Below, piece after piece: positions 34,401-62,833 of a stretch of 64,000 bases of DNA; position 1 is the first letter of the stretch, and every line of letters begins with the position of its first letter. The DNA comes from Ctena decussata (taxonomy: Eukaryota; Mollusca; Bivalvia; Lucinida; Lucinidae): contig OZ022500.1 in assembly GCA_963989385.1 (NCBI GenBank), positions 113,873,842-113,937,841 on the forward strand, given 5' to 3'. Both the position numbers and the translations under genes were made by a program. Below the pieces are notes generated by a model, which worked only from the letters and a program-made list of their open reading frames with translations, was not told where the DNA came from and searched no databases.

Positions 34401-37400
34401 TATTAATGGTTTTAGGTGTCTCAATACTTAATAGTCTGAGTCTTTGCTGTAAAGCAACTTTCCCAATGGCAAAGCTCAAATAAAAGCATCCATCAACTTT
34501 TGAAGGACGTGCAAAATGCACAGAGTTGCAATTCAGTACTAGTACGAGAACTAAAATAAACTGGGGCTTATTTGTCAACATATTTTTATTTGAACACGGA
34601 AATACAAGGTAATTTGTCAAACATGTCTATAAAAATTCTGTTTAAAGGCCTTGATGAAATATGCATGCATAAGTCACCTGTGCACAGGCATGGTTGGGGT
34701 ATATACTGTATGCCTTTAGAAATCTACATTATGTTTAGCGAATGAGTAAATTTTACAGTCATGTTATGATGAGACTGCCCACCTGCGCAATTACATGCAT
34801 CAGTAAGGTAGATTTTTGTAGGATGCTTCTCTAGTTATTAGTTTTATTTGTCTGTGTGTCAGTTATTGTTAATGAGTGTTATGGAAATGATTTTAATTAA
34901 AGGTATTTGATGAAGTATTGTCAGCAGTAACCTTATTTCAGTGCTTTGATCGATTAGGCGGCTGTCACCAATCTAGAAAATATTGGCAATAAATACAATA
35001 CTGAAGTAGATCACATTAACTGCTAGCCTACAAATCTGAGGTTCAAATAGTAAAAGATAAAGGTCATTAAGCATTTTGCGATAGTTTTATTTTCATGAAA
35101 CTTCATACTCATGAGGTTTCGTGAAAATGATTTTTGCGAAACTTTGGGAAAATCAAGTCATTGCTAGCATTTTGCAGATTTACACTATAAAACTTGTGAG
35201 TTGAAAAGCAAAAGGTGCAGATTCTGTAAAAAATGTCTCAAGTTGGAGATTTAACACTTAAAGCAGAATTTGCAAACAGTGTAGATCCTGATGAGGTGGC
35301 TCATAATGAGCCACCTCATCTAGATCTACACTTTTTGCCCTCTAGTTTTTGAGTTTTCAATATGATATAGCTTGGATGAAGCATAGTTTGAAATTTTTGC
35401 AGACGTAAATTTTGTCGTCTGCTTTTTGGGGCTTGAAGGGTTAAATCTCAGTTTATGTGTATTTATGAGAAAAATATAATAAAAAATAAGATGAGGAACT
35501 TTTCAAACACAAAGTTTTTGCTGCTCACCTTCTTTTAATGCTAAGTAATGATAGTGATAGTTGCTAGTAGGTAGGCTAATAAGGAAAATTGTAGACTGGC
35601 AAGAAAAAGAATATTTCAAATTATAGGGAAAAATCTTGTATCAAAAGAAATAAAGGTGGCTCTGAAAAGATTATAGGCAAGTTTCATGTTACACAACCTC
35701 AAACAGTAATTTCTTTTCCTCCTCCAGCATATTTCAAACTATTACATAATGACCGAAAAAAATTATGAAATAAAATACCACATATGGAGGCAGGAACAGT
35801 TCTTAACAACAAGTTTTTTCTGTAGTTAAGAATTTCCTTTGTTCTCAGTATTCCCGTAGGTGTGTGGCAGTATCAAGATACTGCATTTACGCATACATAA
35901 ACATTTGGTGGGATTGAAATTAAGGACTCAGGCAGAGACCCCAGTTTGCTTGGACATAAGGCCCAAGTAGATGGCATTATTTTGATTTTGCCCAGTCACA
36001 CACTAGTTGACATCAGAGGTATACATGACTGGAGCTTCCTCATTCCTCATACATTTGATTGGATGTTTTAGGTGAATGGGGACTCTTCCACGTTTTTTTT
36101 CGCAATCTTTACAAAGAATAGCAATGTTTGTGACTTCTTGTTTGCTTCCTTGGATGATGAAGCCCTTCCAAAATGGGGTCTACTCTGAAAAGAAAGAAAT
36201 TGCTCCTAAGGGAGCAAATTCTTTTCTTTAAGAGCTGACCCATGTTGAGAATGGAGGCAAAAAATGAAATGTTAATGTTGTTCCCCTGAAAGTGTCTCAG
36301 TGTTCTCAATATGACTGAAAGGGCCGTAAAACTTTAAGTCATAAGTCATCCTCTGTGCTGTGGATATTCAGTTCACTTTTACCTTGAACAAGCAGCCTCT
36401 GGCAATAGCTGTACTGTTAGGTGATAGTTTTTGACTTGTCCAAGGAGGCATGAAAAATGCCAGTAGTTAAATAATATGAGAGCCCTAAGTGCCACCGCAC
36501 CTACACAAGCATATCAACAACTTGTGTTTTCACCTGTGACCATACAAATCTTAGGTCTTCCTCATTAATTTGTAAATAAATCTAGGTAGCTCCTTTCGCA
36601 CAAGTTCAGTGTTAAGAAGTTTGAACTTCGGCATGTACTGTTTAACTACACACCTATCTGGCTTATTTATGGAAAGGACATAATAAGTAATACTTGAAAT
36701 GAACATTATTAGAATGTCTCATACATATTTAGAATGTCTGTTAACTCTTTAAGCCCCAGTGACACAATTAGCAAAATTTGCAAACAGCGTAGATCCTGAC
36801 AAGGCGGCTCATAATGAGCCGCCTCATCTAGATCTACACTATTTGCCCTATAGTCTTTGAATTCTCAATATAAAAAGTCTTGGACAAGGCATTTTTTAAA
36901 TTTTGCAGACGTAAATTATGTCGTCTGCTTTTTGGTAGTGAAAGAGTTAAGGAAAAGGAAGTGGGAGGGCAATTTTTTAAGCGGGGAATAAGGCCGGTTT
37001 AAGCAAACAAACACTTGAAAAAATGTAGGTGGTTTTGTAGTATTTTATCAGTCGTAGTAAGAGTAAAGTCTGCCCTAGATAAGTGGTAGTACCATTAATG
37101 ACCCAAAATATCGTGACACCGCAGCCGGCTGCAGTAATTTTAATGGGCCTAAAGTCCAAACAATTTTAATGAACCTGAAATTGGAACGAGTTGACTGTTC
37201 TGTCAGTAGATATGTCAAAAATTGCAGGCGGGATGACAAACAGTTTAGATCCTGACCAGACTGCTCCTTGGGAGGTCTATACTGTTTGCCCTGGAATTTA
37301 GGGTCATTTTGGTAAGTTTAAAGAGGACACTTCATTCATACGAGCTTGGAACAGGGAGTGACCTACAAACGGGCAAAGCTCTTGATAGGCCAAAATTTAA

Positions 37401-40400
37401 AGGACCAAGATTAACTTTGGTTTGTTAAAATAGCATAAAACATATGTCGTAGAATCTCATAAGAGTTGTCTCAGTTTGGAAGTGCCGAAGGTCTTCCATA
37501 GTATATACATTTATATGGCAAAATTAGAAAATTATAAAACAATTTCCTAATCTTTTTCTCCAAATATTATAACATGCATGAACCTGGCTTAAGGTGAACA
37601 ATGTTTTGTGTTGACAAGAGGGATAGGTGGACACAGTGAGGCACTGTCAAAGTCTTGCTCATTCAGGGAGTGTTTAATGTGATGTGAAAATCAGTACAAG
37701 CATTGTGGTATTTTCGGACGTAACTAACAACTGACCTATCCTAGTGTCCGCCAACTGAGATGGATGACTTCGCAGCGTTTTTGGCCTTATCAACAGTATT
37801 TGTCATATTGAGCCCATGGAACAGTTTTGATGAAATACTGTGTGCAGTGGAACCCCATTTTTGATAGAAGGGAATTCCGTCCCCAGTGGGACTTGAACCT
37901 GTAATGCTAGCTTAGCAAGTTAGCACGTAACCCACAGAGCTACTGGTGTTCCTGTCAATGCTGTTGCGGCTACCATAGAAGATGGCAAAGTTTTGACAAC
38001 TTAATTGTTAGTTTTGGATGGCACTACCCTTGTGTGTTGTATATTGGCCTGTGTGAGGCTGAGAAACAGAAGATTTGTTTCCAATTGTGGCATCTTATTG
38101 GAGCTGCCATGGTGTGGTAGTTTTGAATTAAGATTCCTGTTTCCTATAAACCAATATTGTAAGTCAAAGATTTTATCAAACTGATACAGCTGAAGCTGTC
38201 ATGAGTCTTCAGCAGTTGTCTAATCTTCCATAAAAATGACTTATTCCGACAGTGTAGATCCAGATAAAATGCTGCAGAATGCAACAGCTGATCAGGATCT
38301 ACAATTTGCATAAAATTTACTGTAATGTCTATGAAATAAGAGACACCCCTAGAGTGAATTAAAATCTGAAAAAGTTCCTTCAAGAGCAGAGAATACATAC
38401 AGAAGTAGGAATATGGGCCAGACTACGTAGTTTCGGCTAATAAAGCCTCGTCAGTGACCCTGACAATATCTGGTGATGAAACCAGAAAGAAGCATACTGT
38501 AATTTCTTAATTTTAATTGGGCAGTCGATTCAAAGACTGATTAATTTCAAAAGGATCCAAATAATATAACACACGACGATTTAGAATAATAGTGTAAATC
38601 GATCTCAAATTTTAGATTTTTCAGAATATATCCTCTGATCCCAAAGGATGTAAATAAAATATAATCTGCACTATGGATGATGTACGGGGAGACTGGACTC
38701 GTCCACTGGGTACAGATTTGTCAGAATTTTGGTAGTTGTTTTTTTTCTTTAAATAAAACTATGTTACATGTATCTCATGAAAATATTGTCTCTCTTTTCA
38801 GCTATCTTCACTGTAATGTGCTACAATGTTCTGTGCGACAAATACTGCACACGCCAACAGTACGGCTACTGTCCATCATGGGGCCTCAACTGGGAATACA
38901 GGAAGAAGGGTATTATGGATGAGATACGGAACTGCTCAGCAGACGTTATCTGTCTCCAGGTCAGTAATCCGCATACAAGCAGAAAAGCGAGGAAAATATG
39001 TCAGTTAGCATGTGAAAACAGCAAAGACTCAGATCAGACTGTGCGGACATGTCCGCACAGTGATCAGAGTCTTTGCTGTTTGCAGTATAGATTCTTCGGT
39101 CGATACAAACACAGAAAGACGCTTATTCAACTATTTATATGCTTCTGGGTTTTCAGTCAATGCTCACAGTTGCACTGGGCGGAGATGCACCTTTTCTAGT
39201 GGTGTACCTCTTACGTCATAAGCTTTTGTGTCTCAACCGTCTTACGCTCTGATTTATATATTTTTAATGCTTTTGCCCAAATAAATTGCTGTAAGAGGAA
39301 AATTGCATATTTTTTGGAGAAATTTGCATATTTTTCTGACCCATCAAGCCATGGCTCAGCAACCAGAGACTGTCAATCTCATATGTTATGGCATATTACC
39401 AGCGTCAAGATATGGTTTTAAAGATTGCTGTTACAGCTTGTCAACGTGACCTTACCATCACGTGAGAAGGTTTGTCAAGAAAATATGGGCTATATAAGCA
39501 GTGTTCCAGATAAGCAGGGGTAACAGGGATATAGAGATCATTTTCCATATTTCTTCATAAAACATTTATCAAGGCTCCTCTAAACTGTTGCATGGAGACT
39601 GTGAGATGGTTCTAATGAGGGGTCGCAACATATTGTTTGTCAGATTTGTTTTGGTTGAATTATCATCGGGATTCTAACTTATCTGGAGCTCTGGCTAAGG
39701 ACTGCAATCGTATAAATTTTCGAAGTGAATTGATTTTCGTGATTTTCATGCTGAGCAATGTGAGAATTGAAATCCCCATGAATACACCATTTTTACAAAA
39801 TGATTACCATTGGTAATGGACAAGCGTGTAGCAAAATAAAAAAAAATTAGGAAACACCAGTGGCATATTGGACATCCGTGGTCACTGTCCGATTTACTAT
39901 AATTTACTAAGAACTACACCTTTTAGTACAAGCTATAAAAGTTACAATTATTTTAACTGTCACCGTTTATGAAAGCATACAGGTCATTGATCTGATGAGA
40001 CATGTTTTATAAGGTTTAATTTATTGCTTGTCCCCTTGGAGTCATTGTTCTAGGAGCCAGTAACTCTACTAATGATTACATGTTTGGGTTTCTTTGGAAA
40101 AAAATTGTCATGTCGGTGTCTTCTAGATGTGTGTCATTGTCATTATAATGTGTCAAAGTAGGTCAGTGAAACAGATTTTGTGGAAATTATGCTTTAAACA
40201 GAAGCAGCTTTAAAATATACATGTACAATACAGTCTAGATATTCAGGCAGCATTCTGTGAGCAGACATTGTGGACCCAGGTCAGACTGCTCCTAAGGAGC
40301 AGTCTGATCAGAGTCTGCACTGTTTGGTACCATTTCCAAAACACCTCCCATAGTAGTATGAATGGGCTTGTCTAAATTTAGATATGGAAACATCAGTTAC

Positions 40401-55400: not shown

Positions 55401-58400
55401 TTCACATAAGAGATAAACCATCAGATAGAAGAGTGTTGAAAGGGAGAGTTCCAAAGTAGTTTTTGTTTATTCTCCCTGAAAGGTACATAGTACATGTACT
55501 ATTATTATTATTATGTTATGACCCCTCATTTAGAATGACCTTGTCAAGGCATTTCTAATGAGAGGTCACAACATATGCACAACGACACCACAAAACCGAC
55601 AAAGTGGCATGTGCGCCCAGCAAAGTCTCAGATCAGCCTTGGCATTTGCCCAGTCTGATCAGAGACTTTGCTGTGCACTTATAGGGTCTAAGCTACCTCC
55701 ATTCACATAGTGATGACCCTGATGATCAGACTGGGCGGATGTTCAGGCTGATCTGAGTCTTTGCTGGGCTCACATGCCACTTTGTGGGTTTTGTCATGTA
55801 GCACTCATATGTTATATGGAGAACAAAAAATCACAGAATTTTCATGAAATGACTCCTTCAGAGCTCTGTTGGTCATTATCAATATGCTCAATAAATTCCT
55901 TTTGCTAATAAACATATCTTTTAAATTTTTCAGCTGGAAGCACACCACCAGAGGGCCTCATCAAGCAGCCAATCCTCATCGTGACAGCCCACATGCACTG
56001 GGATCCAGAATTCTCCGACGTCAAGTTGATTCAGACAATGATGCTGATGTCGGAACTTAAGCGTATTGTGGAGGAGAGCTATCACCTTGTGCGCCCAAAT
56101 GCCCCCGCTAGCCACACCCCAGACTGCAATACCATACCCATGATACTTTGCGGTGATCTCAACTCATTACCAGAATCAGGTTGGGGGATTTTTACAAAAT
56201 TTTAAGTTTTCAAGATGACATGGGGTTAATTTCTCCATAAAAATATGTTGTTGCCCCTCACTGGAGCTGTTTCAATGTTTATGTGGTGGTTCTAATAAGG
56301 GGCCACAACTCAAGTTTTATAGAAAATTACAGTCTATAATTACAACTGCATGTGTTTTCACTAATTCTATGAAGGGGAACAACTTTCATGACCTTTTGCT
56401 TCCCTGAATGATATGGCCATACTAAAATGGGGTCAACACTCAAAGGAAAGAATTTGCTCCTAAGGAGCAAATTCTTTCCTTTAAGAGTTGGACCAAATTG
56501 TGAAGGGTGGTAAAAGTGGCTGAGTTGTTTCCCCTGAAAGTGACAGCAATCACCTTTTAGATTTATTTGACGTTTTTTTTGTTTTTTTTTGTAACAGACA
56601 AGTGACATCTAAAATTGAGTATAAGTCTTGTTGTATGCAGGATTTTTTATAATTGAGATTTCAGGCATTAGACAACTAATCAGAAAGTTAGAATCAAATC
56701 CTGCTATAAGTCAGTTCTGTAGGTTTTGAATGAAAAAAAAATAACCACATGTACTACATAGATATGATTAAATTTATGCTGTATTGAAAGTCTTATTGAG
56801 ATTTGCTTAGACTAACTTAATTGAATATTATATAAATACATCATTAAGGAGAGGACAAATATAGGGATAGCATCTCATCTTTCAAAACTTTTGTATGTAT
56901 TTATTGTCATTTGCAGGTGTTATAGAATATCTATCATCAGGGAAGGTTGCAGGGAACCATTGTGACTTTAAGGAGCTTGGGTATGAAGCATGTCTTCAGA
57001 CATTTAACTGTAACAAAGATGGTACCCAGCTTACACATAATTTTAAACTCTCCAGGGCCTATGAGAATGATGATATGCCTCATACAAATTACACGTAAGT
57101 ATTTTAATTTTCTTTTATAAAGCTGTAGAAAAAACACATATTTAAAGCAAATGTTATGGATACACATTTATCTTTTTTCACCATTTTTGTCTTGTCTGGG
57201 TCTAGCAGGAGTGAGACTTGTTGAATTCTTTTCCGGCAGTGTTGTTGGCAGAAACTTTGAGTCTAGGGGCCGTATTCATAAAGCCACTTAAGTCGTTGCT
57301 ATGCGGTTGCTAAGGCTAAATATCAATAAAGGAGATTCCCTACAACTATGAAATTTGGTCTGGAGGAACAGTCTTTGTAAGACTGTTCCTCCAGAGCAAA
57401 TTTCATAGTTATAGGGAATCTCCTTCAAAGAAATTTAGCCTTAGCAACAGCATAGCAACCACTTAAGTTGTTTTATGAATACGGCCCCAGATCTTTGGTT
57501 TAGCTCTGTCTTGTGACAATGTGCAGACAGGGGACACGTAGCATTATGCCACTTGTTGCAAAGGGAAACAACTTTTGCACCTTTCTTTTTGCTTCCTTGG
57601 GTTCTGAAACCTTCTCAAGGGAGCTACTCTGTTGTCTGCATATAGAACTGTAAACCCTTTATTCTAAGAATTTTCACTATGATAAAGCTTGGAGGAAACA
57701 TTTTTTTGAAAACTTTCAGAACTAAATTTTGTTGTCTGCGTTTTTGGCACTTTAAGGGGAACATTTAGTCTGCTAGCCGGGCCGCGTAGCGCAATCGGTA
57801 GGGCACCTGACGCATAAGTCGAGGTTCTGGGTTCGAAACCCGGTCTGGCCACATACTTTCGTTTCTCCTTCCCCTGATTCAAGAAGGGCAGTCGTCAGTT
57901 ACTGGCGGAAGTATGTGCACTTAGTACTGGTTAACGGCTTAGGAGGTCTAAGCCTGCCCAGGAATAGTGTGGTTAGGTTAACTGACCGTCCCGACATGAC
58001 CATAGCTTTTTACCGTGGACGTTAAGCATCAAATCAAATCAATCAATTTAGTCTGCTGTACATGAAAAGACAAGTTTCAGCCATTCATCAGGATCTGACT
58101 GCTACCTAAAAACAGTTTAATCAAGGCCCCCCCACTGTTTGATATTCAGTTTCTTACCAAACTTTAAAATAATGAACTGGTTTATGGAAACACCCCCGAG
58201 AGAGGGGAGGACACTTTGACATATAATAATTTGCCTCCCTTCTCAAAGGTGGCTTTGTCATCTCGGGGAGAGTTGGGTAACTTCGGACAGCGGGTAAATT
58301 CGGACAGTGACATTTTTTCCTTTATATGTCAGTTGTCTGGAACTAAAACAAAACAATAACGGTCAAACAGTGAAAATCCTGATGAGACGGCTCATTATGA

Positions 58401-59120
58401 GCCGTCTCATCTGGATTTTCACTGTTTGCAATGCTATGTCCGAATTTACCCGCTTGTCCGAAGTTACCCGACTCTCCCCTAGTGAAGCAAACAGGGAACA
58501 CAGAAATAGTTTACCTTTGTAAAAATGGCAGAAATACATGAAGGTGTACACATAAACTTTAAATTATGAAAAAAAAAAAAGGTTCGGTATATTCCAGATT
58601 TGCTTTGCTGCCATGTATGCAAGGGAGACAACTTCAGTAGAATTGTTTGCCTTGTAGGGGAACTCCCTTAAAGGAAAGAGTTTGCTGAGAGCCAATCTTC
58701 CCTTTAATAGTGGTCCCCTGCCAGCTCTCTAACATTGGTCCCCTGCCAGAAGGGAGACAAACTTCTGTAGATATGAGAGTGATCCAAATTAAAATTTAAA
58801 AATCCTTCATAAAATCCATGTATTTACTGTATTTCAGGTATGACTTCAAAGGTATCATAGATTACATCTTCTTCTCAAGAAAGTACATGAATCTTCTTGG
58901 ACTGTTAGGTCCGATGGATGAGAACTGGTTTACGGACAATAAAGTGGTCGGCTGTCCTCATCCGCATATTCCATCTGATCATTTCGCATTGTTTGTCGAG
59001 TTCGAGTTACCCGTCCCATACCCAGCAGTCAGTGACATAATAGGTGACAATAAAACTAGTGGCAGCTCTACGGGCAGGGAATCATCAAGTTCAGGTGGGA
59101 ACTTGCCGAAACTGAGATAA
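1..59120 (+). CDS. CNOT6: CCR4-NOT catalytic deadenylase (CNOT6/CNOT6L-like), 8 visible exons, 5'-partial
   Basis: Joined coding sequence of exons 1-1444, 24402-24470, 38802-38959, 44467-44621, 47141-47298, 55934-56179, 56917-57094 and 58838-59120, about 896 codons plus stop. Every internal junction is AG/GT and in phase. The product is the Mg-dependent 3'-5' poly(A) exonuclease of the CCR4-NOT complex, which shortens mRNA tails in the cytoplasm. Counting from the window edge, the EEP catalytic set is present: N513 (MCYNVL), E558 (LQEVET), H681/H683 (AHMHWDPE), D736 and N738 (GDLNSLP), D811 (IIDYIF) and H851 (PSDHF). It should therefore be active. The leucine-rich repeats that bind the NOT1/CAF1 side in this family are not visible and must be encoded upstream. 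CNOT6 and CNOT6L are vertebrate paralogues, so the symbol means the single invertebrate orthologue. The tie between exon 1 and the rest is inferred from splice phase only. Confidence 0.9.
1552..1795. repeat. MITE with ~50-bp terminal inverted repeats (CTCAGCTGAG type)
   Basis: The ends match as inverted repeats over about 50 bases, including TATAAAACTTTTTTC and CTCAACTCAGCTGAGCATGA. The interior also folds (ATGCCAAC/GTTGGCAT around 1630). It lies about 110 bp after the exon 1 donor. No second copy was seen in the window. Confidence 0.8.
2014..2236. repeat. MITE, GCCGCGACACGAC-ended family, copy 1
   Basis: Terminal inverted repeat of about 40 bases (GCCGTGACACGACAAAACC with AACAAAGTGGCATGTGC). 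Inside are two hairpins built on GACTCTGATCAGACTGGGC and its complement, separated by TAGCTACCCTTTAAG. Eight copies are seen in the window. Confidence 0.88.
2935..3113. repeat. GCCGCGACACGAC-ended MITE, degenerate left half (copy 2)
   Basis: The right arm is well preserved (GCCCAGGCTGATC to TTTTGTCATGTCGCGGCTC). The left arm is recognisable only as GCTGTGCATTTAGAGGGTAGC. It ends about 100 bp before the 56-bp tandem array. Confidence 0.7.
3215..4258 (+). repeat. Tandem array, 56-bp unit, ~18.6 copies
   Basis: The unit starts CTGTGGACTTTTCTTCATCA and ends GGATGTGGTCTATT; starts at 3215, 3271 and so on are exactly 56 bp apart. Units differ at a few recurring positions (CTTCATC/CGTCATC, CAAACTG/CACACTG, GGTCT/GGGCT). 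Because 56 is not a multiple of 3 and no phase of the unit has a forward stop, all three + frames stay open and spell one 56-residue peptide cyclically. This is a minisatellite, not a gene. Confidence 0.95.
4696..4763. repeat. Solo GCAAACAGTGTAGA hairpin
   Basis: Arms GCAAACAGTGTAGACCCTGA + TCAGACTGCTCC with mirror; apex CTCCTAGAGGAG. An upstream ATAATGACCCTAAATATAGG (about 4577) may mark a diverged ACCGTAATGACCC MITE end. Confidence 0.85.
5879..5947. repeat. Hairpin AATCAACCTTGATTCAACAT
   Basis: TGAATGAACCTTGAATCAAC arms mirror GTTGATTCATGGTTCATTC. CCCACTGGGCACAC precedes it; a similar GTGGGCACATGAAGGTGAAA hairpin lies at 24495-24595. Confidence 0.78.
6438..6768. repeat. Foldback element made of ~30-bp repeats in mirrored arms
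   Basis: The ends CACAGGGTATAATCGATTCC and its complement close a long palindrome centred near 6602. Each arm is built from about five direct repeats (starts 6467, 6497, 6526, 6559, 6589) of the pattern CTTCCTGCCGAGACTGTCCG, with variable spacers that are only partly mirrored. Open frames here on both strands (MASAETV...) are products of the repeat. Confidence 0.88.
6926..7147. repeat. TTAA-flanked piggyBac-like MITE, copy 1
   Basis: TTAA at 6926-6929 and 7144-7147 flank inverted ends TTAACACTTTAAGCGCC and TTTAAAGTGTTAA. The interior holds the palindrome GGTGGCTCATAATGAGCC, with one arm duplicated. Terminal form and TTAA target match piggyBac-type elements. Confidence 0.8.
7993..8045. repeat. 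Left arm of a GGGGAGAGTCGGGTAACTTC MITE, interrupted
   Basis: It is identical in layout to the left arm at 58265 through GACAGTGACATTTTT. It is then cut by the AGCTCACCTG element (8046-9544) and resumes at 9545 with TTTCCTTTATATGTCAGTTG, as in the uninterrupted copy at 58312-58335. The right terminal arm is not found afterwards. Confidence 0.85.
8046..9544 (+). mobile_element. Non-autonomous AGCTCACCTG element (Helentron-like), copy 1
   Basis: Left end AGCTCACCTGAGCACGAAGTGCT has a hairpin (AGCAC/GTGCT) right after AGCTCACCTG. Right end has CTCAGGTGAGCGATCC, the hairpin GGGCCATCATGGCCC and terminal TCTTG. The interior is made of about 120-155-bp repeats (four GACTTCTCCTCCAAAACTGC units, then about five TAGAGGGCACAGTTATGATC units). 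No transposase or helicase frame is present. Insertion into a T tract, terminal hairpins and subterminal inverted repeats fit Helentron-associated elements; the class is an inference. Confidence 0.72.
9731..9870 (+). mobile_element. Same SINE family, diverged 3' fragment
   Basis: It matches the body from AAGTATGTGCACTTAGTACTGG through GGTCTAAGCCTGCCCAGGAA to a CAACAACAACAACA tail and an A-run. The tRNA part and first half of the body are missing. Confidence 0.8.
10480..10705 (-). mobile_element. tRNA-derived SINE, third family, minus strand
   Basis: On the minus strand, GGCGCCGTAGTGCAGAAAG and GGTCGTGAGTTCGCGGCTC form an A/B-box pair. The body (CTGCTGGGTTGACAGAGAGA as read on +) is shared with 32880-32945. 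Confidence 0.7.
10764..10831. repeat. Solo GCAAACAGTGCAGA hairpin
   Basis: Near-perfect arms with apex GCTCCTGTGGAGC. No TIR recognised around it. Confidence 0.85.
10960..11070 (-). mobile_element. tRNA-like SINE head, minus strand
   Basis: On the minus strand TAGTGGTTTACACACTAGGC and a B-box-like GGTTCAAACCC resemble a tRNA half. The acceptor stem does not pair cleanly. Confidence 0.5.
12050..12180 (+). mobile_element. Second-family SINE, head and partial body
   Basis: The tRNA-like head contains GAGCCTAGTGGGTTAAG and B box GGTTCGAATCC. The body continues TTCTCCATTGCATGCAACCT and ends near TTATTGCCC. A MITE with TATTGGGACA ends starts at once afterwards. Confidence 0.75.
12185..12293. repeat. 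Short palindromic MITE (TATTGGGACACCTAAAA type), copy 1
   Basis: Left end TACCCTAATGTGCTTAAGTA, apex TTTTCCATTTGTCCCAAATGG, right end TATACGCATATTACTGTA. Almost the whole element is one foldback. Confidence 0.82.
12440..14054 (+). mobile_element. TGTCCCCCC element with ~146-bp internal repeats, nested in copy A
   Basis: It starts with the hairpin TGTCCCCCCACC/GGTGAGGGGGGACA (12440-12470), continues with GTCGGCGTCGGCGTCGGCGT, and ends near TGGTGGGGGGACATCAG. The interior has about seven units of 145-160 bp carrying TGGTGACCTTGACC at 12611, 12757, 12917, 13063, 13208, 13356 and 13721. The larger last gap is a SINE insertion at 13465-13666. The uninterrupted target is seen in copy B at about 14873-14892. 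Confidence 0.8.
13465..13666 (+). mobile_element. Same SINE family, 5'-truncated, 13-bp target duplication
   Basis: It starts at CCGGTCTGGCCACATAC, just after the B box of the tRNA part, and runs through the whole body to the ATCAACC tail. CCACTTTACTTTC repeats on both sides (13452-13464, 13667-13679). Inserted into the TGTCCCCCC element. Confidence 0.9.
14664..14745 (+). mobile_element. SINE 3' end fragment between long-TIR copies A and B
   Basis: GGGAGATGGCTCAATATAGA and AAAGGGTCATTAAACCC match the element at 51405-51510. No tRNA-like part. Confidence 0.5.
14780..15448. mobile_element. Long-TIR element, copy B (uninterrupted, 669 bp)
   Basis: Both arms of about 210 bp are complete (CACAGTATCCGAACGCACTG ... 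CAGTGCGTTCGGATACTGTG). The central part contains TTTGCACGACACAAACTTGT. It serves as the empty-site reference for both nested insertions. Only about 150 bp separates it from copy A. Confidence 0.88.
16442..16638. repeat. AGAGCTC-ended foldback MITE
   Basis: CGATAAGAGGGAGTATTTG to CCCTCTTATCTACAGCTCTG, apex CTGAACCGAGACGGTTCAG. The left tip is lost. Confidence 0.82.
17192..17263. repeat. Solo hairpin, GACAAACAGTGGTGACCC variant
   Basis: Apex TGCTTCTAAAGAAGAAGCA; the arms carry GGTGACCC in place of GTAGACCC on both sides, so the change is compensated. Confidence 0.83.
18050..18274. repeat. GCCGCGACACGAC-ended MITE, copy 3
   Basis: Both arms are present; the terminal repeat has diverged (GAGCAGCCAGGTGACAAAAT). 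Two internal hairpins and the TAGCTACCCTTTAAG spacer are recognisable. Confidence 0.85.
19764..19868 (-). mobile_element. Retroelement 3' end with AAGAT repeat tail, inserted in the array
   Basis: A run of AAGAT repeats (19764-19785) followed by AATTTTATTTTGAGACTGCA and a CCCTTAAGGGC palindrome. Read on the minus strand it ends in TCTTA repeats, like a retrotransposon tail. The sequence ACTAAGAT occurs at both borders, a probable target duplication. Confidence 0.55.
20185..20380. repeat. pogo-like MITE, copy 2
   Basis: It starts CAGTCAACTCTTGATATCTC, ends GATATCGAGAGTCTACTG, and has TA on both sides. It interrupts the GCAGTGCTAGCTAT array. Confidence 0.8.
21173..21216. repeat. Perfect hairpin AATGTGAGAAGCTTTTGCA
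   Basis: AATGTGAGAAGCTTTTGCAC faces its mirror TGCAAAAGCTTCTCACATT with almost no loop. CCTGGGCCCAAATTTTTAAA upstream and CAACTGGGCCC downstream hint at a larger MITE at about 21075-21315. Confidence 0.75.
21960..22200. repeat. GCCGCGACACGAC-ended MITE, copy 4
   Basis: Both arms and the central TAGCTACC spacer are present. The ends carry ACCAACAAAGTGGCATGTG and its complement; the flanking TATGAGCC/GGCTCATA extends the palindrome. Confidence 0.88.
22984..23198. repeat. MITE, ACCGTAATGACCC-ended family, copy 1
   Basis: Left end ACCGTAATAGACCCTAAATA; right end AATTTTAAGGTCATAATTATCGGTAA. The interior hairpin GCAAACATTGTAGACCCAGATC and mirror is followed by ATCATTTGGATGCATTAATG. Confidence 0.78.
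23888..23995. repeat. TATTGGGACACCTAAAA-type MITE, copy 2 (inverse)
   Basis: Left end TACAGTAATGTGCGTATATA, right end CCCAATACTTAAGCACATTA. Reverse orientation to copy 1. Confidence 0.82.
24402..24470 (+). CDS. CNOT6: Exon 2: short linker exon before the nuclease domain
   Basis: A 69-base exon is preceded by a pyrimidine tract ending in AG at 24400-24401 and followed by donor GTATAT at 24471. In frame it reads ...NASQPPHRHWIPLARPEPG.... This aligns with the vertebrate linker that has QPPPRSW or LPPRPW just before the nuclease; the Pro run and the Trp are shared. It enters in phase 1 and leaves in phase 1 (final G of an Ala codon completed by CT of exon 3). It is isolated between introns of 23.0 kb and 14.3 kb, so gene finders could easily miss it. 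A reading in another frame (LTPHSLHTDTG) has no family match. Confidence 0.85.
24495..24595. repeat. Foldback 25 bp downstream of exon 2
   Basis: GGGCACATGAAGGTGAAATG pairs with CATTTCAATGTCATGTGCC; inner GATGTCGATGCGACATTATA with CCCATCGACATCAG. It could form structure next to the exon 2 donor. Confidence 0.75.
25884..25941. repeat. Solo hairpin, short apex
   Basis: ACAAACAGTGTAGACCCTGA with GATCAGACTGATCCAGTCTG apex; the right arm has diverged (GTGTCTGTTCTGTCTGTCC). Confidence 0.75.
26100..26740 (+). repeat. Tandem block, ~90-bp unit, ~7 copies
   Basis: The motif CAACTTCATGTGATATTACA recurs at about 26178, 26267, 26353, 26450, 26538, 26629 and 26719 (spacings 86-97). Each unit also carries a GCATGCATACA segment. 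One more unit lies beyond an insertion, at about 27555-27700. Confidence 0.85.
26745..27555. mobile_element. Unclassified insertion splitting the 90-bp array
   Basis: Sequence between the seventh unit and the last one is unrelated to the array. It starts near TTGCATAAAAAGCAGTGCAG and ends with the foldback 27412-27551. Flanking array pieces match each other, so this is inserted DNA; its class is unknown. Confidence 0.55.
27412..27551. repeat. Foldback with GGCCTTCGGCC apex
   Basis: GCGATCAAACATTTTCCAAT and AATGCATTAAC arms mirror CGTTAATGCATG and CATGTTTGATC; inner arms GGGAGATGTTG/CAACATCTCCC; apex CCTCGGCCTTCGGCCTCG. Confidence 0.82.
27706..30504. mobile_element. Long-TIR element, copy C, split by AGCTCACCTG element
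   Basis: Left arm 27706 onward and right arm to 30504 correspond to copy B. The sequence stops at GGCAAGGAGTTTT (28160) and resumes at 30286 with TTCATTGTACAGGGCAATAA. Copy C itself sits beside the 90-bp repeat remnant. Confidence 0.85.
28161..30285 (+). mobile_element. Non-autonomous AGCTCACCTG element (Helentron-like), copy 2
   Basis: Left end AGCTCACCTGGCCCGAAGGGCC, right end CAGGTGAGCGATATCAGG plus hairpin AGGCCCATTTGGGCCT and CTTG. The architecture matches the element at 8046-9544, but hairpin sequence and interior differ. The interior has about 145-bp tandem units (AAGATGGCCGCCATCTG at 29163, 29309, 29454 and later). It lies inside the long-TIR element 27706-30504; the empty site is seen at 15221-15240. 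Confidence 0.75.
31861..31886. repeat. A-run (26 A)
   Basis: An uninterrupted A tract lies just upstream of the GC-richer island. No target duplication or gene copy ending here was recognised. Confidence 0.9.
32070..32166 (+). other. Possible cryptic first exon or exon fragment inside intron 2
   Basis: Within a locally GC-richer, non-repetitive stretch (about 31905-32180) an ATG opens MASAGDFELGPSSISFPDIA, continuing to ...TYLFVNWNI. A potential donor GTTGAA follows at 32167. The coding length is 97 bases, phase 1, which is the phase needed to join exon 3 at 38802. Without splicing it stops two codons later. I recognise no family. It could be an alternative promoter/first exon giving a CNOT6 lacking the leucine-rich repeats, a captured exon fragment from another gene, or chance. 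Confidence 0.2.
32351..32438. repeat. Hairpin with duplicated left arm
   Basis: GCAAACAGTGAAGACC is followed by two CCTGATCAGACTGCT units, then one mirror arm AGCAGTCTGATCAGGGTCTG. The duplication gives two alternative foldings. Confidence 0.82.
32815..32990 (-). mobile_element. Third-family SINE fragment, minus strand
   Basis: It shares CTGCTGGGTTGGCAGAGAGA, CCTTCCCTGATTTGAAACGG and GAAGCCCA with 10530-10620. The tRNA-like head is not recognisable. Confidence 0.6.
34338..34432. repeat. TATTGGGACACCTAAAA-type MITE, copy 3
   Basis: CTACCCTAATGTGCTTAAAT to GGTGTCTCAATACTTAA; right tip truncated. Confidence 0.78.
35251..35444. repeat. TTAA-flanked piggyBac-like MITE, copy 2
   Basis: TTAA at both ends (35251-35254, 35441-35444). 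Internal hairpin at about 35269-35338: GCAAACAGTGTAGATCCTGA, apex GGTGGCTCATAATGAGCC. GCAGACGTAAATTTTGTCGT lies near the right end. Confidence 0.83.
36095..36300. repeat. GGGGAAGCAACT-family MITE
   Basis: Hairpin AAAGAAATTGCTCCTAAGGG and mirror, right end TGTTGTTCCCCTGAAAGTG. A tail of the second SINE family (ATATGACTGAAAGGGCCGTA) follows directly. Confidence 0.72.
36741..36950. repeat. TTAA-flanked piggyBac-like MITE, copy 3
   Basis: It begins TTAACTCTTTAAGCCCC and ends GTGAAAGAGTTAA; TTAA is at both borders. Internal hairpin 36778-36848 has apex GGCGGCTCATAATGAGCCGC. Confidence 0.86.
37236..37289. repeat. Solo hairpin, right arm shortened
   Basis: ACAAACAGTTTAGATCCTGA, CAGACTGCTCCTTGGGAGG, then GTCTATACTGTTTGCC. 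The GATCAGACTG half of the right arm is deleted. TTTAGGGTCATTTTGGTAA follows as a likely ACCGTAATGACCC MITE end. Confidence 0.72.
37840..37960 (-). mobile_element. tRNA-like SINE head on the minus strand
   Basis: Read on the minus strand it gives CCAGTAGCTCTGTGGGTTAC, ending with B-box-like GGTTCAAGTCC. The anticodon region is not intact, so a working tRNA gene is unlikely. Confidence 0.62.
38248..38310. repeat. Solo hairpin, degenerate
   Basis: GACAGTGTAGATCCAGATA, apex GCTGCAGAATGCAACAGC, right arm GATCAGGATCTACAATTTGC. Confidence 0.7.
38802..38959 (+). CDS. CNOT6: Exon 3: start of EEP nuclease domain
   Basis: The acceptor is TCTCTTTTCAG and the donor GTCAGT at 38960. It encodes AIFTVMCYNVLCDKYCTRQQ followed by YGYCPSWGLNWEYRKKGIMDEIRNC-type sequence and ends VICLQ. 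This is the N-terminal beta strand and first helix of the EEP fold. Asn513 in CYNVL is the conserved metal/substrate Asn. Identity to animal CNOT6 is very high, so the call is secure. The exon ends on a codon boundary directly before the catalytic Glu codon of exon 4. Confidence 0.96.
39018..39083. repeat. Hairpin intermediate between two module types, 60 bp after exon 3
   Basis: GCAAAGACTCAGATCAGACT, apex GTGCGGACATGTCCGCAC, right arm ATCAGAGTCTTTGCTGTTTGC. The arms match the module inside the GCCGCGACACGAC MITEs, while the GTTTGC end matches the solo hairpins. Confidence 0.85.
39499..39695. repeat. AGAGCTC-ended foldback MITE, diverged
   Basis: CAGTGTTCCAGATAAGCAGG to AACTTATCTGGAGCTCTGG. 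The central hairpin is poorly conserved (TAAACTGTTGCATGGAG). Confidence 0.75.
40261..40326. repeat. Solo hairpin
   Basis: GCAGACATTGTGGACCCAGG ... apex CTCCTAAGGAG ... AGAGTCTGCACTGTTTGG. Confidence 0.83.
40690..41180 (+). repeat. ~145-185-bp tandem units with palindromic TTTCATATGAAAT core
   Basis: TTCTTACTAAA starts units at 40706, 40890 and 41036. Each unit contains AGTTAAAATCCCATTTTAAA and the palindrome GAAATTTATGAAAC/GTTTCATAAATTTC. One unit has lost one side of the palindrome. Confidence 0.75.
42166..42232. repeat. Solo hairpin
   Basis: GCAAACAGTGTAGACCTTGA, apex GCTCCTGAGGAGC, right arm GGGTCTGCACTGTTTGC. A CCTGAAATATTCGGACC about 110 bp before it resembles an ACCGTAATGACCC MITE end. 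Confidence 0.85.
42787..42998. repeat. TTAA-flanked piggyBac-like MITE, copy 4 (inverse orientation)
   Basis: It begins TTAACTCTTTCAGTACC and ends GGCTTAAAGAGTTAA. Internal hairpin has apex GACGGCTCATTATGAGCCGT. Orientation is opposite to copy 3. Confidence 0.86.
43384..43600 (+). mobile_element. tRNA-derived SINE, second family (GTCATCCATCC tail)
   Basis: The head GCCCCGGTAGCTAAGTAGGT is tRNA-like, with a B-box-like GGCTTCGAGCTCC. The body has TTGCACACAGCCTTTCATAA and ATATGACTGAAACACTGTTG, ending AAGTCATCCATCCATCC. Confidence 0.8.
44467..44621 (+). CDS. CNOT6: Exon 4: EEP nuclease, catalytic Glu
   Basis: Acceptor TTCTTCAACAG; donor GTGAGA at 44622. The first codon is the metal-binding catalytic Glu558 (EVETDQFYNFFLPELEREGY). 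The rest contains the CNOT6 signature FSPKSRARTM and EQERKHVDGCAIFF. It exits in phase 2 (AA of a Lys codon). If the intron were retained, translation would stop at once (AAG TGA), so only spliced mRNA encodes enzyme. Confidence 0.96.
44723..44938. repeat. TTAA-type MITE, copy 5 (one border CTAA)
   Basis: It begins CTAACTCTTTAAGCACC and ends GCTTAAAGTGTTAA. Internal hairpin has apex GGCGGCTCATTATGAGCCGC. It sits 100 bp downstream of exon 4. Confidence 0.83.
45325..45432 (+). mobile_element. Second-family SINE, 3' half
   Basis: It matches the body from CCATTGCACACAGCTTTTCA to AAGTCATCCATACGTCCATC. The tRNA head is absent. Confidence 0.7.
45439..45504. repeat. Solo hairpin, degenerate
   Basis: ACAAACTGCAGACCCTTATC, apex AGGCCCCTGACGGGC, right arm TCTGATCTGGGTTGTAC. 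It follows a second-family SINE tail. Confidence 0.7.
45728..45940. repeat. GGGGAAGCAACT-family MITE with a C-run in its hairpin
   Basis: Left CACTTTCAGGGGAAGCAATT, right GAGTTGTTTCCCTTTGTAAA. The apex region carries an uninterrupted C tract followed by ACCCCC at about 45808-45826, replacing GAATTTGCTCC of the left arm. Confidence 0.72.
46117..46310. repeat. ACCGTAATGACCC-ended MITE, copy 2 (inverse)
   Basis: Left end ACTGTAATGACCCGAAAACA; right end AATATTTAGGGTCATTAGGG. It contains the same GCATCCAAATGATGC segment and hairpin as copy 1, in inverse orientation. Confidence 0.8.
46583..46811. repeat. TTAA-flanked MITE, copy 6 (diverged subfamily)
   Basis: It begins TTAACCCACTTCATTCGGG and ends GAATGCAACGGGTTAA. 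The interior hairpin keeps GCAAACAGTTTGGATC arms but has a different apex (CCCCAGATGTTTGTGGGG). A CAGACGACAAAA motif shared with the other copies lies near the right end. Confidence 0.78.
47141..47298 (+). CDS. CNOT6: Exon 5: EEP nuclease, central part
   Basis: Acceptor CACATTTCAG; donor GTAAGC at 47299. It completes Lys609 with G and reads FRLMKEHLIEFNQLAMANAE, then MLNRVMTKDNIG, which are CNOT6 hallmarks. The end (LLETKEGVFESSG) enters the region that is variable between CNOT6 and CNOT6L, a surface loop before the HMHWDP strand. Exit phase is 1 (G completed by CT in exon 6). Confidence 0.96.
47330..47395. repeat. Hairpin remnant 30 bp after exon 5
   Basis: GCAAACAATGCAGACCCTGA, TGAGCAGTCTGATCAGCAAC; the right arm has degenerated. 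It begins just downstream of the splice donor. Confidence 0.65.
48301..48660 (+). mobile_element. Partial element with CCGT repeats (ACATAGGCGGAGGGGGACTA type)
   Basis: Start CACCCGACATAGGCGGAGGG, then a TCCG tandem run at about 48357-48408, then two copies of AATCTTGTCCCCGCAACTCC with ATCTTTCATCGGATTGATTT 130 bp apart. It resembles the 5' part of other bivalve elements of this kind; the right end was not found. Confidence 0.6.
48926..49143. repeat. ACCGTAATGACCC-ended MITE, copy 3 (inverse)
   Basis: Left end ACCTTTATGACCCTAAAATT; right end AATATTTAGGGTCATTACGG. Interior hairpin 49041-49110 with apex CTCCTTCAGGAG. Confidence 0.8.
50257..50447. repeat. pogo-like MITE with TA target duplication, copy 1
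   Basis: It starts CAGTCAACTCTCTAGACATC and ends GATAACCGGGAGTTGACTG, flanked by TA on both sides. The CAGTCAACTC..TCTCGAAC terminal form is typical of pogo/Tigger-type Tc1-mariner elements. Confidence 0.82.
50680..50901. repeat. MITE, GGGCCGTATTAATAAAG-ended, copy 1
   Basis: Inverted ends GGGCCGTATTAATAAAGCC and GACTTAAGTGG-type with GAATACGGCCCC. It has near-perfect arms around GGAACAGTCTTTGTAAGACT. Nearly identical to 57266-57488. Confidence 0.9.
51103..51298. repeat. AGAGCTC-ended foldback MITE
   Basis: CAGTGCTCCAGATAAGAAGG to CTTATCTGGAGCTCTG, apex TTAGAACCGTCTCGGTTCTAA. Confidence 0.85.
51405..51510 (+). mobile_element. SINE 3' end (CAAGGGGCCGTTAAAC type)
   Basis: GGGAGACGGCCCGATATAGA, CTCAAGGGGCCGTTAAAC and tail AACCAACCACCCAACCAATC. 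A related stretch is at 14664-14745 (GGGAGATGGCTCAATATAGA ... GGGTCATTAAACCCGG). Confidence 0.6.
52116..52360. repeat. GCCGCGACACGAC-ended MITE, copy 5 (well preserved)
   Basis: The ends TATGAGCCGCGACACAAC and GTCGTGTCGCGGCTCATA are close to perfect complements. Both internal hairpins are intact. The outer TA or ATATG/CATAT may be the target duplication. Confidence 0.9.
52468..52539. repeat. Solo hairpin
   Basis: ACAAACAGTGTAGTTCCTAA, apex TGCTCCTTCAATAGGAGCA, right arm AGGATCTACACTGTCTGC. Confidence 0.84.
53502..53695 (+). mobile_element. Second-family SINE, internally rearranged
   Basis: The head GCCCCAGTAGCTCAGTGGAT loses its B-box half. TTCTTTCCAAC and the CCATTGCACACAGCCTTTCA or GGGTTCCATAATCATCA segment are partly duplicated. 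The tail ends TTTTCCATCCATCT. Confidence 0.72.
54090..54302. repeat. GGGGAAGCAACT-ended MITE with GAATTTGCTCC hairpin
   Basis: Left TTTCAGGGGAGGCAACTTTG, centre hairpin AAAGGAAAGAATTTGCTCC and mirror, right GTCGTTTCCCTTTGTAAAAA. The same family is seen at about 36095-36300, 44165-44350, 45728-45940, 50030-50195, 56370-56545, 60255-60440 and, partial, at 15690-15830, 16130-16230 and 58610-58770. Confidence 0.8.
54743..54901. repeat. Foldback with CCCGCTCCGCGCTCG apex
   Basis: Arms TAGCTCTAGCATTGAATTGT and GTCAGTTGTAAGTAGAT mirror the right side. The apex is GC-rich in an AT-rich setting, as in the foldback at 27412-27551. Confidence 0.82.
55573..55810. repeat. GCCGCGACACGAC-ended MITE, copy 6
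   Basis: Both arms are present with diverged tips (ATGCACAACGACACCAC; GTCATGTAGCACTCATAT). It directly abuts the hairpin of an AGAGCTC-family MITE at about 55515-55572. Confidence 0.85.
55934..56179 (+). CDS. CNOT6: Exon 6: EEP nuclease, HMHWDPE and GDLNS motifs
   Basis: Acceptor AAATTTTTCAG. After a variable Gly/Pro-rich start (AGSTPPEGLIKQP) it encodes ILIVTAHMHWDPEFSDVKLI, a helix ending in RIVEESYHLV, a second variable loop (RPNAPASHTPDCNT), and IPMILCGDLNSLPES. Asp736 and Asn738 are catalytic; the residue before the Asp is Gly where vertebrates have Ala. The donor at 56180 is CAG/GTTGGG, a poor match beyond GT. Read-through would add only GWGIFTKF and stop, giving a nuclease that lacks the last two catalytic residues. 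Confidence 0.95.
56370..56545. repeat. GGGGAAGCAACT-ended MITE in intron 6
   Basis: Left GAAGGGGAACAACTTTCATG; hairpin AAAGAATTTGCTCCTAAGG and mirror at about 56440-56485; right GAGTTGTTTCCCCTGAAAG. It fills a quarter of the 737-bp intron after the weak donor. Confidence 0.82.
56917..57094 (+). CDS. CNOT6: Exon 7: EEP nuclease, C-terminal half
   Basis: Acceptor TCATTTGCAG; donor GTAAGT at 57095. It encodes GVIEYLSSGKVAGNHCDFKE, a stretch aligned to the vertebrate LxNFSC region (QTFNCNKDGTQ), then LTHNFKLSRAYENDDMPHTNY. The last motif corresponds to ITHGF.L.SAYE..LMPYTNY of vertebrate CNOT6. Exit phase is 2; Thr803 is completed by exon 8. Confidence 0.96.
57266..57488. repeat. MITE, GGGGCCGTATTCATAAAG-ended, copy 2
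   Basis: It differs from copy 1 at only a handful of positions over about 220 bp (for example ATCAATAAAGG for ATCTATAAAGG, TTATAGGG for TTGTAGGG). It lies in intron 7, 170 bp after exon 7. Confidence 0.9.
57775..58045 (+). mobile_element. tRNA-derived SINE, full-length
   Basis: The 5' part is tRNA-like, with an A-box region GCGTAGCGCAATCGGTAGGG and B-box GGTTCGAAACC; the acceptor arms GGGCCGC/GTCTGGCC roughly pair. A conserved body follows (CTTTCGTTTCTCCTTCCCCT, TATGTGCACTTAGTACTGGT, TAGGAGGTCTAAGCCTGCCC), then a tail of ATCAA repeats. A target duplication ATTTAGTCTGCT flanks it (57763-57774 and 58046-58057). Pol III transcription and LINE-driven insertion are known for this class. Confidence 0.9.
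58265..58480. repeat. MITE, GGGGAGAGTTGGGTAACTTC-ended, complete copy
   Basis: Left GGGGAGAGTTGGGTAACTTC + GGACAGCGGGTAAATTCGGAC; right arm is the complement (GTCCGAATTTACCCGC, GTCCGAAGTTACCCGACTC). The centre carries the shared hairpin with apex GACGGCTCATTATGAGCCGT, the same apex as TTAA MITE copy 4. Confidence 0.88.
58838..59120 (+). CDS. CNOT6: Exon 8: EEP C-terminus and stop codon
   Basis: Acceptor CTGTATTTCAG. It encodes YDFKGIIDYIFFSRKYMNLL, then LGPMDENWF, and GCPHPHIPSDHFALFVEFEL. Asp811 and His851 complete the active site. After the conserved domain comes a Ser/Gly-rich tail (SGSSTGRESSSSGGNLPKLR) ending at TAA 59118-59120. The tail after the catalytic His is 45 residues, longer than the roughly 26 in human CNOT6L, and is probably disordered. 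Confidence 0.96.
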
Positions 59121-60893: not shown

Positions 60894-61102
60894 AACCCGG
60901 TCTGGCCACATACTTTCGTTTCTCCTTCCCCTGATTCAAGAAGGGCAGTTGTCAGTTACTGGCGAAAGTATGTGCACTTAGTACTGGTCAACCGCTTAGG
61001 AGGTCTAAGCCTGCCCAGGAATAGTGTGGTTAGGTTAACTGACCATCCCGGCATGACCATAGCTGTTTACCGTAGACGTTAAGCAACAAATCAATCAATC
61101 AA
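60894..61102 (+). mobile_element. Same SINE family, 5'-truncated, 15-bp target duplication
   Basis: It starts at AACCCGGTCTGGCCACATAC and has a complete body and ATCAATCAATCAA tail. TCCTTTCAGAGTAGA flanks it (60879-60893, 61103-61117). The target is the arm of a GGGGAAGCAACT-type MITE. Confidence 0.9.
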
Positions 61103-61745: not shown

Positions 61746-61951
61746 TCAGAGCTCTAGATAAGAGGGAGTATTTGGTGATAATTAGGGATAATTTTTGTTA
61801 ATTCTGCATAAAAACATATGTTGTGACCCCTCATCTGAACCGTCTCGACGAGACGGTTCAGATGAGGGGTCACAACATATTGTTTCAATGAGAAACAAGC
61901 AAAATTATCCTTAATTATCATCAAATACCCCCTCTTATCTAGAGCTCTGAT
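61746..61951. repeat. AGAGCTC-ended foldback MITE, best copy
   Basis: TCAGAGCTCTAGATAAGAGG and its mirror close a near-perfect foldback about 206 bp long. The centre is CTGAACCGTCTCGACGAGAC, flanked by ATGTTGTGACCCCTCAT. Confidence 0.9.
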
Positions 61952-62011: not shown

Positions 62012-62250
62012 TATGAGCCGGGACACGAGAAAACCAGCAAAGTGGTTGTGTGCACAGTCTAGACTCAGATCAGCCTGGGCATCTGCCCAGTCTGATCAGT
62101 CTTTGCTGTCCGCATTGAGGTAGTTTAAACCCATAGCTACCCTTTAAGTGCTTAGCGAAGAGTCTGATCAGACTGGGTGGATGCCCAGGCTGATCTGAGT
62201 CTGTGCTCAGCGCCCAACCACTTTGTTGGTTTTCTCGTGTCGCAGCTCTA
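62012..62250. repeat. GCCGCGACACGAC-ended MITE, copy 7
   Basis: The ends are TATGAGCCGGGACACGAG and CTCGTGTCGCAGCTC. A short direct repeat of flanking sequence (CATTAATATTATA) occurs on both sides, as if the element landed in a locally duplicated stretch. Confidence 0.88.
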
Positions 62251-62761
62251 TTATTTCATTAATATTATATAAGGATGATCAGGTCGATGTTCTTTACATC
62301 CATGAATATAGGAGACAGCTGATTAGCATATTCTAATGATGATTCTAAATAGTTGCATAGTTACTGCTCATAAATTCTTATTTCTGAAAATGTTTAGGCA
62401 ACTGGTAAAGACATAGATCTAAATGCTTGAAAGACCAGGTCTATACTGTGTGTAATTTTACCAAGCAAGTATGTGGAACAGTTATTAGAGAGAATAAAAT
62501 TTAGATTTACATGGTACAGTGCTGGAAGTTTTAAAAATTTGCCATAACAAGTGTGTATTTACATTGGGGTATCACAGATACCGAGTCACAACCTCAGATA
62601 CTATGTAAAGCCGTTATATTAAAGTGAATGAGTACACTTTCAGGGGAAGCAACTCTGTCATTTTCATTTTTGCGTCTCTTGATAGTGGAATCTCTTAAAA
62701 GGATTCTTCCCTTAAGAGTAGGTCCCATTTTGGAAAGCTTTGTCTTTCACTGATTCAAACA

Positions 62762-62833
62762 GGAGCAGTTTGATCTGGGTCTACATTGTTTGCTCAGACC
62801 TGTTTGTCCAAATATTTAGGGTCATAACGGTAA
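62762..62833. repeat. ACCGTAATGACCC-ended MITE, right half only
   Basis: It starts at GGAGCAGTTTGATCTGGGTC and runs to ATTTAGGGTCATAACGGTAA. It is fused directly to the truncated GGGGAAGCAACT-type MITE on its left, so one element interrupted or replaced part of the other. Confidence 0.7.

Follow-up and report, generated by a model that had tools for sequence, protein, structure and literature searches.

The 64,000-nucleotide stretch analysed here, called the window throughout (G000:C3:113873842-113937841, within a 1.658-Gb assembly), is DNA of animal type with many introns and surrounds exons of a CNOT6/6L-like gene; the one exon compared matched CNOT6L with an E-value of 1e-27. A sequence-only reading of this DNA had proposed that MITEs with unrelated ends carry one common hairpin, and its core proved to be real, at the places given, and far above chance. 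The arm core GCAAACAGTGTAGA, with three or fewer mismatches, occurs 60 times in the window against 7.7 expected, a number that 0 of 100 shuffles reached, and GATCAGACTG, with at most one mismatch, occurs 70 times against 4.1 expected. Exact matches to the apex GACGGCTCATTATGAGCCGT lie at 42915 and 58386 only, and there are eight window matches with up to three mismatches where 0 were expected.

A genome-wide search with the arm as query, the check that the sequence-only reading had suggested, returned 32,879 exact matches (16,461 + 16,418) to a 14-base arm sequence, against 8 (4 + 4) for the reversed control. We built a covariance model on 14 window hairpins and obtained 165 matches at E<=0.01 from 285 kb searched on both strands. 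The best 150 of these were aligned and correspond to 80 separate places, with 41 in 200 kb of genome picked by coordinate alone, 30 in the window itself and 9 in stretches that had been selected for an arm; three of the 80 are other hairpin families (fam2 and fam3). The 41 coordinate-picked places, two of them fam3, give a density of about 20 hairpins per 100 kb, which extrapolates to about 300,000 in the whole genome. Counted by hand, the 100 rows of the hairpin listing, in which two hairpins were entered on both strands, comprised 62 GC/GC, 21 GT/AC, 1 AT/AT and 16 without a full match.

MITE families were named by their flanks and ends: TTAA-1 (TTAACTCTTT..), TA-1 (TACCGTAATGACCC..) and TA-2 (TAGGGGAGAGTCGGG..), with the further families TTAA-2 (one copy), TTAA-3 (L030:2838, L031:7138 and L026:5382) and G (TGAGCCGCGACACGAC.., with two hairpins). 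TA-1 ends in ACCGTAATGACCC and TA-2 in GGGGAGAGT, and both have TA target sites. The hairpin was found in all four TTAA-flanked elements for which it had been reported, which are TTAA-1 copies: 35251-35444 on the minus strand (hairpin 35272-35338, near end to the left, TTAA at both ends and the flank of the family), 36741-36950 on the minus strand (hairpin 36780-36846), 42787-42998 on the plus strand (hairpin 42892-42958 with apex GACGGCTCATTATGAGCCGT; its long flank has 99-100% identical relatives genome-wide) and 44723-44938 on the plus strand (hairpin 44833-44899), where the left target-site duplication reads CTAA. A fifth TTAA-1 copy, outside the range of that reading, lies at 6926-7148 on the plus strand, with a hairpin at 7030-7107 in which a piece of the apex is duplicated. 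The single TTAA-2 copy (46583-46811, minus strand; TTAACCC..GGGTTAA) has its hairpin at 46624-46692.

Three TA-1 copies, reported as starting at 22984, 46117 and 48926, likewise contain the hairpin and have left ends 1-3 bases off ACCGTAATGACCC: 22983-23198 on the minus strand (hairpin 23023-23097), 46116-46313 on the plus strand (hairpin 46198-46265; right end tandemly doubled) and 48925-49145 on the plus strand (hairpin 49039-49106), whose left flank was used as the genome query. The element at 4574-4802 (plus strand) is TA-1-type by its ends, with a hairpin at 4696-4763 followed by a duplicate of the arm end, and the right part of a TA-1 element with its left arm deleted (junction CAAACA/GGAGCAG) lies at 62744-62832 on the plus strand. 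The TA-2 element, which has a GGGGAGAGTCGGG TIR, occupies 58265-58479 on the plus strand and holds, as reported, a hairpin within its GGGGAGAGT ends (58363-58429). A related form was said to occur twice in each GCCGCGACACGAC-ended element, and these G elements, all on the plus strand, do contain a pair of hairpins, spaced about 100 bp apart. In the copy at 52119-52356 a 36-bp TIR is followed by a hairpin at each end (52155-52220 and about 52255-52320); the others lie at 21962-22198 (hairpins 21999-22064 and 22099-22164), 62014-62249 (62050-62113 and 62148-62213) and 2012-2236, the last with a shortened right flank. A solo hairpin is present at 52468-52538 and a candidate solo hairpin, without a modelled MITE flank, at 40261-40327.

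The hairpin is a quasi-palindrome of about 67 bp with two 33-bp arms and, in the three young families, a spacer of one or two bases. In the 14 window hairpins 91.8% of cells are paired and the arms covary, as the sequence-only reading had noticed (covariation 0.311 versus 0.158 when shuffled, with 0 of 500 shuffles as high and slid partners at <=0.068). Folded as single-strand DNA, six hairpins were far more stable than their shuffles (z -5.4 to -16.5). One position is conserved as unpaired, with T.T or, on the opposite strand, A.A. Of 79 loci, 55 show T.T or A.A at position 18 and 20 have an A-T pair there, and positions 17, 19, 20 and 21 are 85-97% paired; with the fam2 and fam3 rows removed, the mismatch is seen in 33 of 52 non-G and 22 of 25 G hairpins. 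Some TTAA-1 and TA-1 copies are paired at the mismatch position. The orientation of the mismatch in TTAA-1 is opposite to that in TA-1, TA-2, TTAA-3 and G, and in GCCGCGACACGAC elements A.A is followed by T.T, so that the two hairpins are oppositely oriented. Four TTAA-1 copies have a common A.C mismatch, which suggests that a mildly damaged source was still able to move. Both 33-bp arms look homologous across hairpin types, for example the A arm GATCAGACTGCTCCT and the T arm GATGAGACGGCTCAT, and this homology makes a convergent origin very unlikely.

Several other repeats lie in the window. An unrelated 66-bp hairpin, fam2 (15704-15769, 36176-36241, 54156-54221 and 56430-56490), shows a T.T or A.A mismatch at position 6 of the arm in 13 of the 16 loci sampled, and its apex GCTCCT resembles the A type. 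The 73-bp hairpin fam3 (16504-16568, 51169-51233 and 61812-61885 in the window, and L025:1617 and L033:2397 elsewhere) occurs in at least two different surroundings and is perhaps another common module. A 56-bp tandem satellite at 3026-4407 directly follows a truncated G element. A 206-bp repeat that is 93-95% identical between copies (13464-13669, 57839-58044 and 60896-61101) overlaps similar open frames (..YWRKYVHLVLVNRLGGLSLPRNSVVRLTD..) at two of the three places, and two nearly identical 123-bp palindromes are located at 50729-50851 and 57316-57438.

Genome queries made from flanks only gave 1,544 first-look candidates for TTAA-1, 2,378 for TA-1 and 1,915 for TA-2; among the best-scored 40 per family, identity was 99-100%, 90-95% and 97-99%, respectively, the last two without the window copy. 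We fetched 20 of the best-scored 40 per family, which are the nearest relatives of the window copies, so that a branch lacking the hairpin might have escaped notice. The hairpin or its remains was present in all 60 fetched copies (20 each of TTAA-1, TA-1 and TA-2), which were picked by flanks with the hairpin left out of the query. The TTAA-2, TTAA-3 and G families likewise carry it. Most fetched copies have TTAA (TTAA-1) or TA (TA-1 and TA-2) at both ends and then unlike host DNA, and a few have one end altered or lost. The presence of the hairpin or its remains in every copy, with differing host DNA beyond the ends of most, implies that the hairpin is carried along within the moving MITE. 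The elements are short and numerous, with TIRs and a target-site duplication of constant type, in line with the definition of MITEs; their TIRs, TTAA or TA duplications and internal hairpin do not fit Helitrons or Helentrons.

Averaged across the six families, identity is about 0.6 in the left arm and falls to about 0.3 outside, with values of 13-47% at every one of the 24 far positions and at 28 of the 30 near ones. On either side, the families cease to resemble each other at the base of the hairpin. Without the target site, the distance from the hairpin to the near end is 35-37 bp in TA-1, TTAA-1, TTAA-2 (from one copy), TTAA-3 (from two copies) and G, a constancy noticed post hoc, and 50 bp in TA-2; the far flank measures about 98-136 bp. 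In G, a hairpin lies about 36 bp in from each of the two ends; in the copy at 2012 the distance is smaller. The motif TGTCCGAATWT, beside the hairpin in the near flank, is common to TA-1 and TA-2 (p 0.001; in the 30 flank comparisons no other value fell below 0.01), so these two families are possibly relatives. The sequence-only reading held that the ends of the elements at 42787 and 58265 share nothing. Between TTAA-1 and TA-2 no common end sequence was indeed seen, but TA-1 and TA-2 do share TA sites and this motif.

One account of a common hairpin would be descent alone, from one hairpin-bearing ancestor MITE whose ends have since diverged beyond recognition, with no need for exchange. The TTAA-1, TTAA-2 and TTAA-3 ends are alike by eye (TTAACCC type), a likeness with which the near-flank comparison disagrees (p 0.29-0.995), and both the near-flank motif of TA-1 and TA-2 and the similar near-end spacing in all families fit such an ancestor. 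We nevertheless consider it unlikely, as the arms have stayed alike with flanks at background, the two kinds of target site, TTAA and TA, imply different transposases, and the hairpin tree places the T-type hairpins of TTAA-1 and TA-2 together, opposite TA-1, TTAA-3 and G, with support of 93/93 (97/93.7 after removal of TTAA2_w46624, the TTAA-2 row, which formed a long branch). Forcing TA-1 with TA-2 or TTAA-1 with TTAA-3 was rejected for the whole hairpin (p 0.03 and 0.04), in which paired columns are not independent, and was not rejected for single arms (AU p 0.11-0.26); the end kinship of TTAA-1 and TTAA-3 is by eye only, with a flank comparison of p 0.29. The disagreement between hairpin and end groupings points to exchange of hairpins between families, to which the trees lend modest support. 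The identical apex at 42787 and 58265, the key argument of the sequence-only reading, was set aside as proof of transfer and is a weak one: the left half of the GACGGCTCATTATGAGCCGT apex is already present in four sister TTAA-1 copies (L035, L036, L043 and L045), from which 42787 differs in the apex by a single base.

In young copies, base change per bp was equal in hairpin and flanks (0.0529 versus 0.0556 in TA-1 and 0.0112 versus 0.0115 in TTAA-1), so that copies drift once inserted. The 35 fetched young copies with an intact hairpin contain 55 one-sided arm changes and 0 two-sided ones, and the window copy at 42892, which is apart from the 35, has one two-sided change. By comparison, the three family consensuses show nine two-sided differences (positions 8, 11, 13, 15, 22, 24, 25, 27 and 32) and three one-sided ones (positions 1, 9 and 17). 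The Fisher test of young copies against consensuses gives 5e-9, in which the positions are not independent events because the TTAA-1 and TA-2 consensuses are both T-type. The natural reading of these alignments is that only a copy with a paired stem can act as a source, and that source copies would be under selection for a DNA hairpin; rare arm-to-arm template switching could be another source of two-sided changes.

Such switching might even operate without selection, repeatedly overwriting one arm with the sequence of its partner, and the covariation would then have a mechanical cause. Deletions and duplications concentrate in the hairpins, TA-1 copies L057 and L069 have repeated arms, and in TTAA-1 copy 42892 an A.C pair may have been corrected to A.T. 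Against this, none of the 55 changes in the 35 fetched copies is two-sided, the one two-sided change being that of the window copy, and homogenisation should erase the mismatch at pair 18, which persists in all three consensuses although the pairs to its left and right have changed in concert. We regard homogenisation as the whole explanation as improbable, to about the same degree as descent alone.

Indels of at least 3 bp in 57 copies numbered 23 in the hairpin and 3 in the right flank (Fisher 0.004), in a count that omits TA-1 copies L062, L064 and L069, whose right ends matched poorly, and in which the right flank of TTAA-1 was itself part of the copy-picking query. TA-2 copy L085 lacks nearly all of its hairpin; this loss begins in the left flank and is outside the 23. 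An earlier indel comparison was dropped because left flanks had served to pick the copies. Thirteen of 19 deletions cross the dyad, and microhomology of at least two bases accompanies 63% of deletions versus 28% of possible positions. This instability suits palindrome extrusion in DNA. Copy L069 contains about three tandem copies of one arm, possibly the start of a satellite, and the one-arm deletion junction CAAACA/GGAGCAG recurs at 7340-7383 and 62744-62793, in opposite arms.

To classify hairpins outside complete elements we used an inner-flank profile that models the inner flanks of TA-1, TTAA-1 and TA-2 only, with false calls of 1-3% per family and doubtful calls taken as leads. Among 87 loci with long enough flanks, it called 8 TA-1, 9 TTAA-1 and 3 TA-2, made doubtful calls of TA-1 at 12 and of TTAA-1 at 5, and gave none at 50. 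By our own sorting, the 50 comprise the unmodelled 28 G, 4 TTAA-2/3 and 1 fam2 loci and 17 others, including 4696, which has TA-1 ends yet was missed by the profile. One TTAA-1 call, L018:6459, is actually a fam3 hairpin. Two loci that had been read as solos, 7340 and 25884, received firm TA-1 calls, and two more, 45439 and 51834, doubtful ones. The hairpin at 52468 is 60/66 identical to the A type and has no modelled flank; that at L028:8810 is 62/66 identical and has a doubtful TA-1 flank call (p 6.9e-4, in a test with a false rate of 28/1000 at p<2e-3). Both differ from the A type by 6-9%, and their joined flanks (70 + 70 bp at 52468) match only themselves genome-wide and are thus single-copy DNA; in the same search, a TA-1 flank used as control found 428 candidates, with scored relatives 80-85% identical. 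In simulation the flank test still recognised each modelled family at divergences as high as 30%, succeeding in all 100 trials per family. No target-site duplication is visible at 52468 or L028:8810. The solo hairpins are a mixture of some TA-1 relics and two well-kept ones in single-copy DNA. The possibility raised by the sequence-only reading that all of them are eroded MITE interiors applies to 7340 and 25884 and was not shown for 52468 and L028:8810.

These two loci bear on whether the hairpin moves by itself, as its own mobile unit (for instance a single strand or filler at repaired breaks) that landed in several MITEs, which in turn spread it. The unique flanks of both solos beside the hundreds of candidates for the control, the full power of the flank test up to 30% simulated divergence, and the loss of similarity between families just outside the hairpin, on either side, are what such movement would leave. 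On the other hand, neither a target-site duplication nor an empty/filled pair was seen, the hairpin is inside MITEs in 60 of 60 family copies, L028:8810 has its doubtful TA-1 call, the profile missed 4696, and, with two solos searched genome-wide, low-copy MITEs with unfamiliar ends or partial MITE deletion could look alike. Self-movement seems somewhat less probable than either descent alone or homogenisation. Less probable still is a fuller version, in which a eukaryotic DNA-hairpin parasite, a self-inserting 67-bp quasi-palindrome with an orientation-marking mismatch, rides unrelated MITEs at a set distance, aids their spread and is passed between them. A role as transcribed RNA (a small-RNA precursor or regulatory hairpin) is also very unlikely: the three consensuses fold stably as long RNAs (-51 to -56 kcal/mol) and several elements lie between exons of the CNOT6-like gene, but the window has 0 Rfam matches at the gathering score and a spacer of 1-2 bases in the young families would better suit a DNA palindrome. 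The sequence-only reading had offered a choice between a self-moving hairpin, template switching between elements and convergent selection for the structure; the two-sided excess favours selection for the structure and the trees modestly favour exchange, convergence is very unlikely, and self-movement improbable.

We favour, at about even odds (a probability of roughly 0.5), the reading that the hairpin is a cis-acting DNA module, selected and exchanged among MITE families. It would be carried beside one end by several families that are probably moved by different transposases, and only copies with a working hairpin would serve as sources, the structure being selected at the level of the element. 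The hairpin would act as DNA, extruding as strands part, and repair-linked template switching among the very many copies may move it between elements or convert it. Much more tentatively, its role may be architectural, that of a joint or junction beside one end. A joint might let the ends of an element of about 210 bp meet, or a junction might draw a junction-binding host protein to one end, and either would serve unrelated transposases. HMG-box proteins prefer four-way junctions. According to a review (PMC7827188), the ends of Sleeping Beauty must be separated by about 300 bp and the DNA-bending protein HMGB1 aids the element, which makes a joint role plausible for short MITEs. Selection for pairing across families with probably different transposases would point to a general cis requirement of MITEs and bears on why some of them reach thousands of copies and others fail, and the extrapolated 300,000 or so hairpins form a natural set for hairpin instability in an animal.

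Three hairpin patterns had 0 matches in viral contigs; in prokaryote contigs the first pattern had 0 and the second 5, by sight unlike the hairpin context here. In the accessible text covered by a literature search, with subscription papers mostly outside its scope, there was no report of a hairpin common to MITEs with unrelated ends; looking for the hairpin sequences as text strings led to two unrelated papers, and PMC6934838 proved to have no bearing on the question. Ordinary piggyBac-type (TTAA) and Tc1/mariner-type (TA) MITEs are alike in TIRs, target sites, a length of about 210 bp and neutral decay, and differ from the elements described here, in which one internal hairpin is common across different ends. 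The pearl MITEs and satellite-bearing elements of bivalves are also modular and non-autonomous with internal sequence in common, but the common modules in the accessible accounts (PMC5139131, PMC8268682) are satellite-like rather than a 67-bp hairpin, and only one satellite there is described with junctions located non-randomly in a palindrome (PMC5139131). Bacterial REP sequences and REPINs, with their RAYT transposases, resemble our hairpins as short imperfect palindromes that occur singly or as inverted pairs, comparable to G elements, and in their compensatory changes, with singlets read as remnants; in the accessible account (PMC3116915) REPINs are held to be RAYT-linked replicative units, whereas the present hairpin lies within TTAA or TA elements with TIRs. 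On whether the palindrome is itself the mobile unit, the loci here point both ways, with 60 of 60 fetched family copies inside MITEs and 2 of 2 examined solos in single-copy DNA. The highly conserved domains (HCDs) of SINEs, which together with REPINs are the nearest parallels, include, as far as the accessible text goes (PMC6887750), a V domain in the MITE MER6; each is likewise an internal module common to non-autonomous elements of different origin, with module exchange and function debated and one HCD case in a TA-flanked MITE. Elements with otherwise unrelated parts have a module in common here too, apart from the near flanks of TA-1 and TA-2, although the carriers have TIRs and TTAA or TA sites in place of the pol III head and LINE-like tail of a SINE. 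The V HCD is about 120 bp, and HCDs are found on retroposons and are not described in that text as palindromes, whereas the module here is a hairpin with covarying arms in several families of DNA-transposon MITEs whose target sites differ, and would be the equivalent, among DNA transposons, of what the HCDs are among SINEs.
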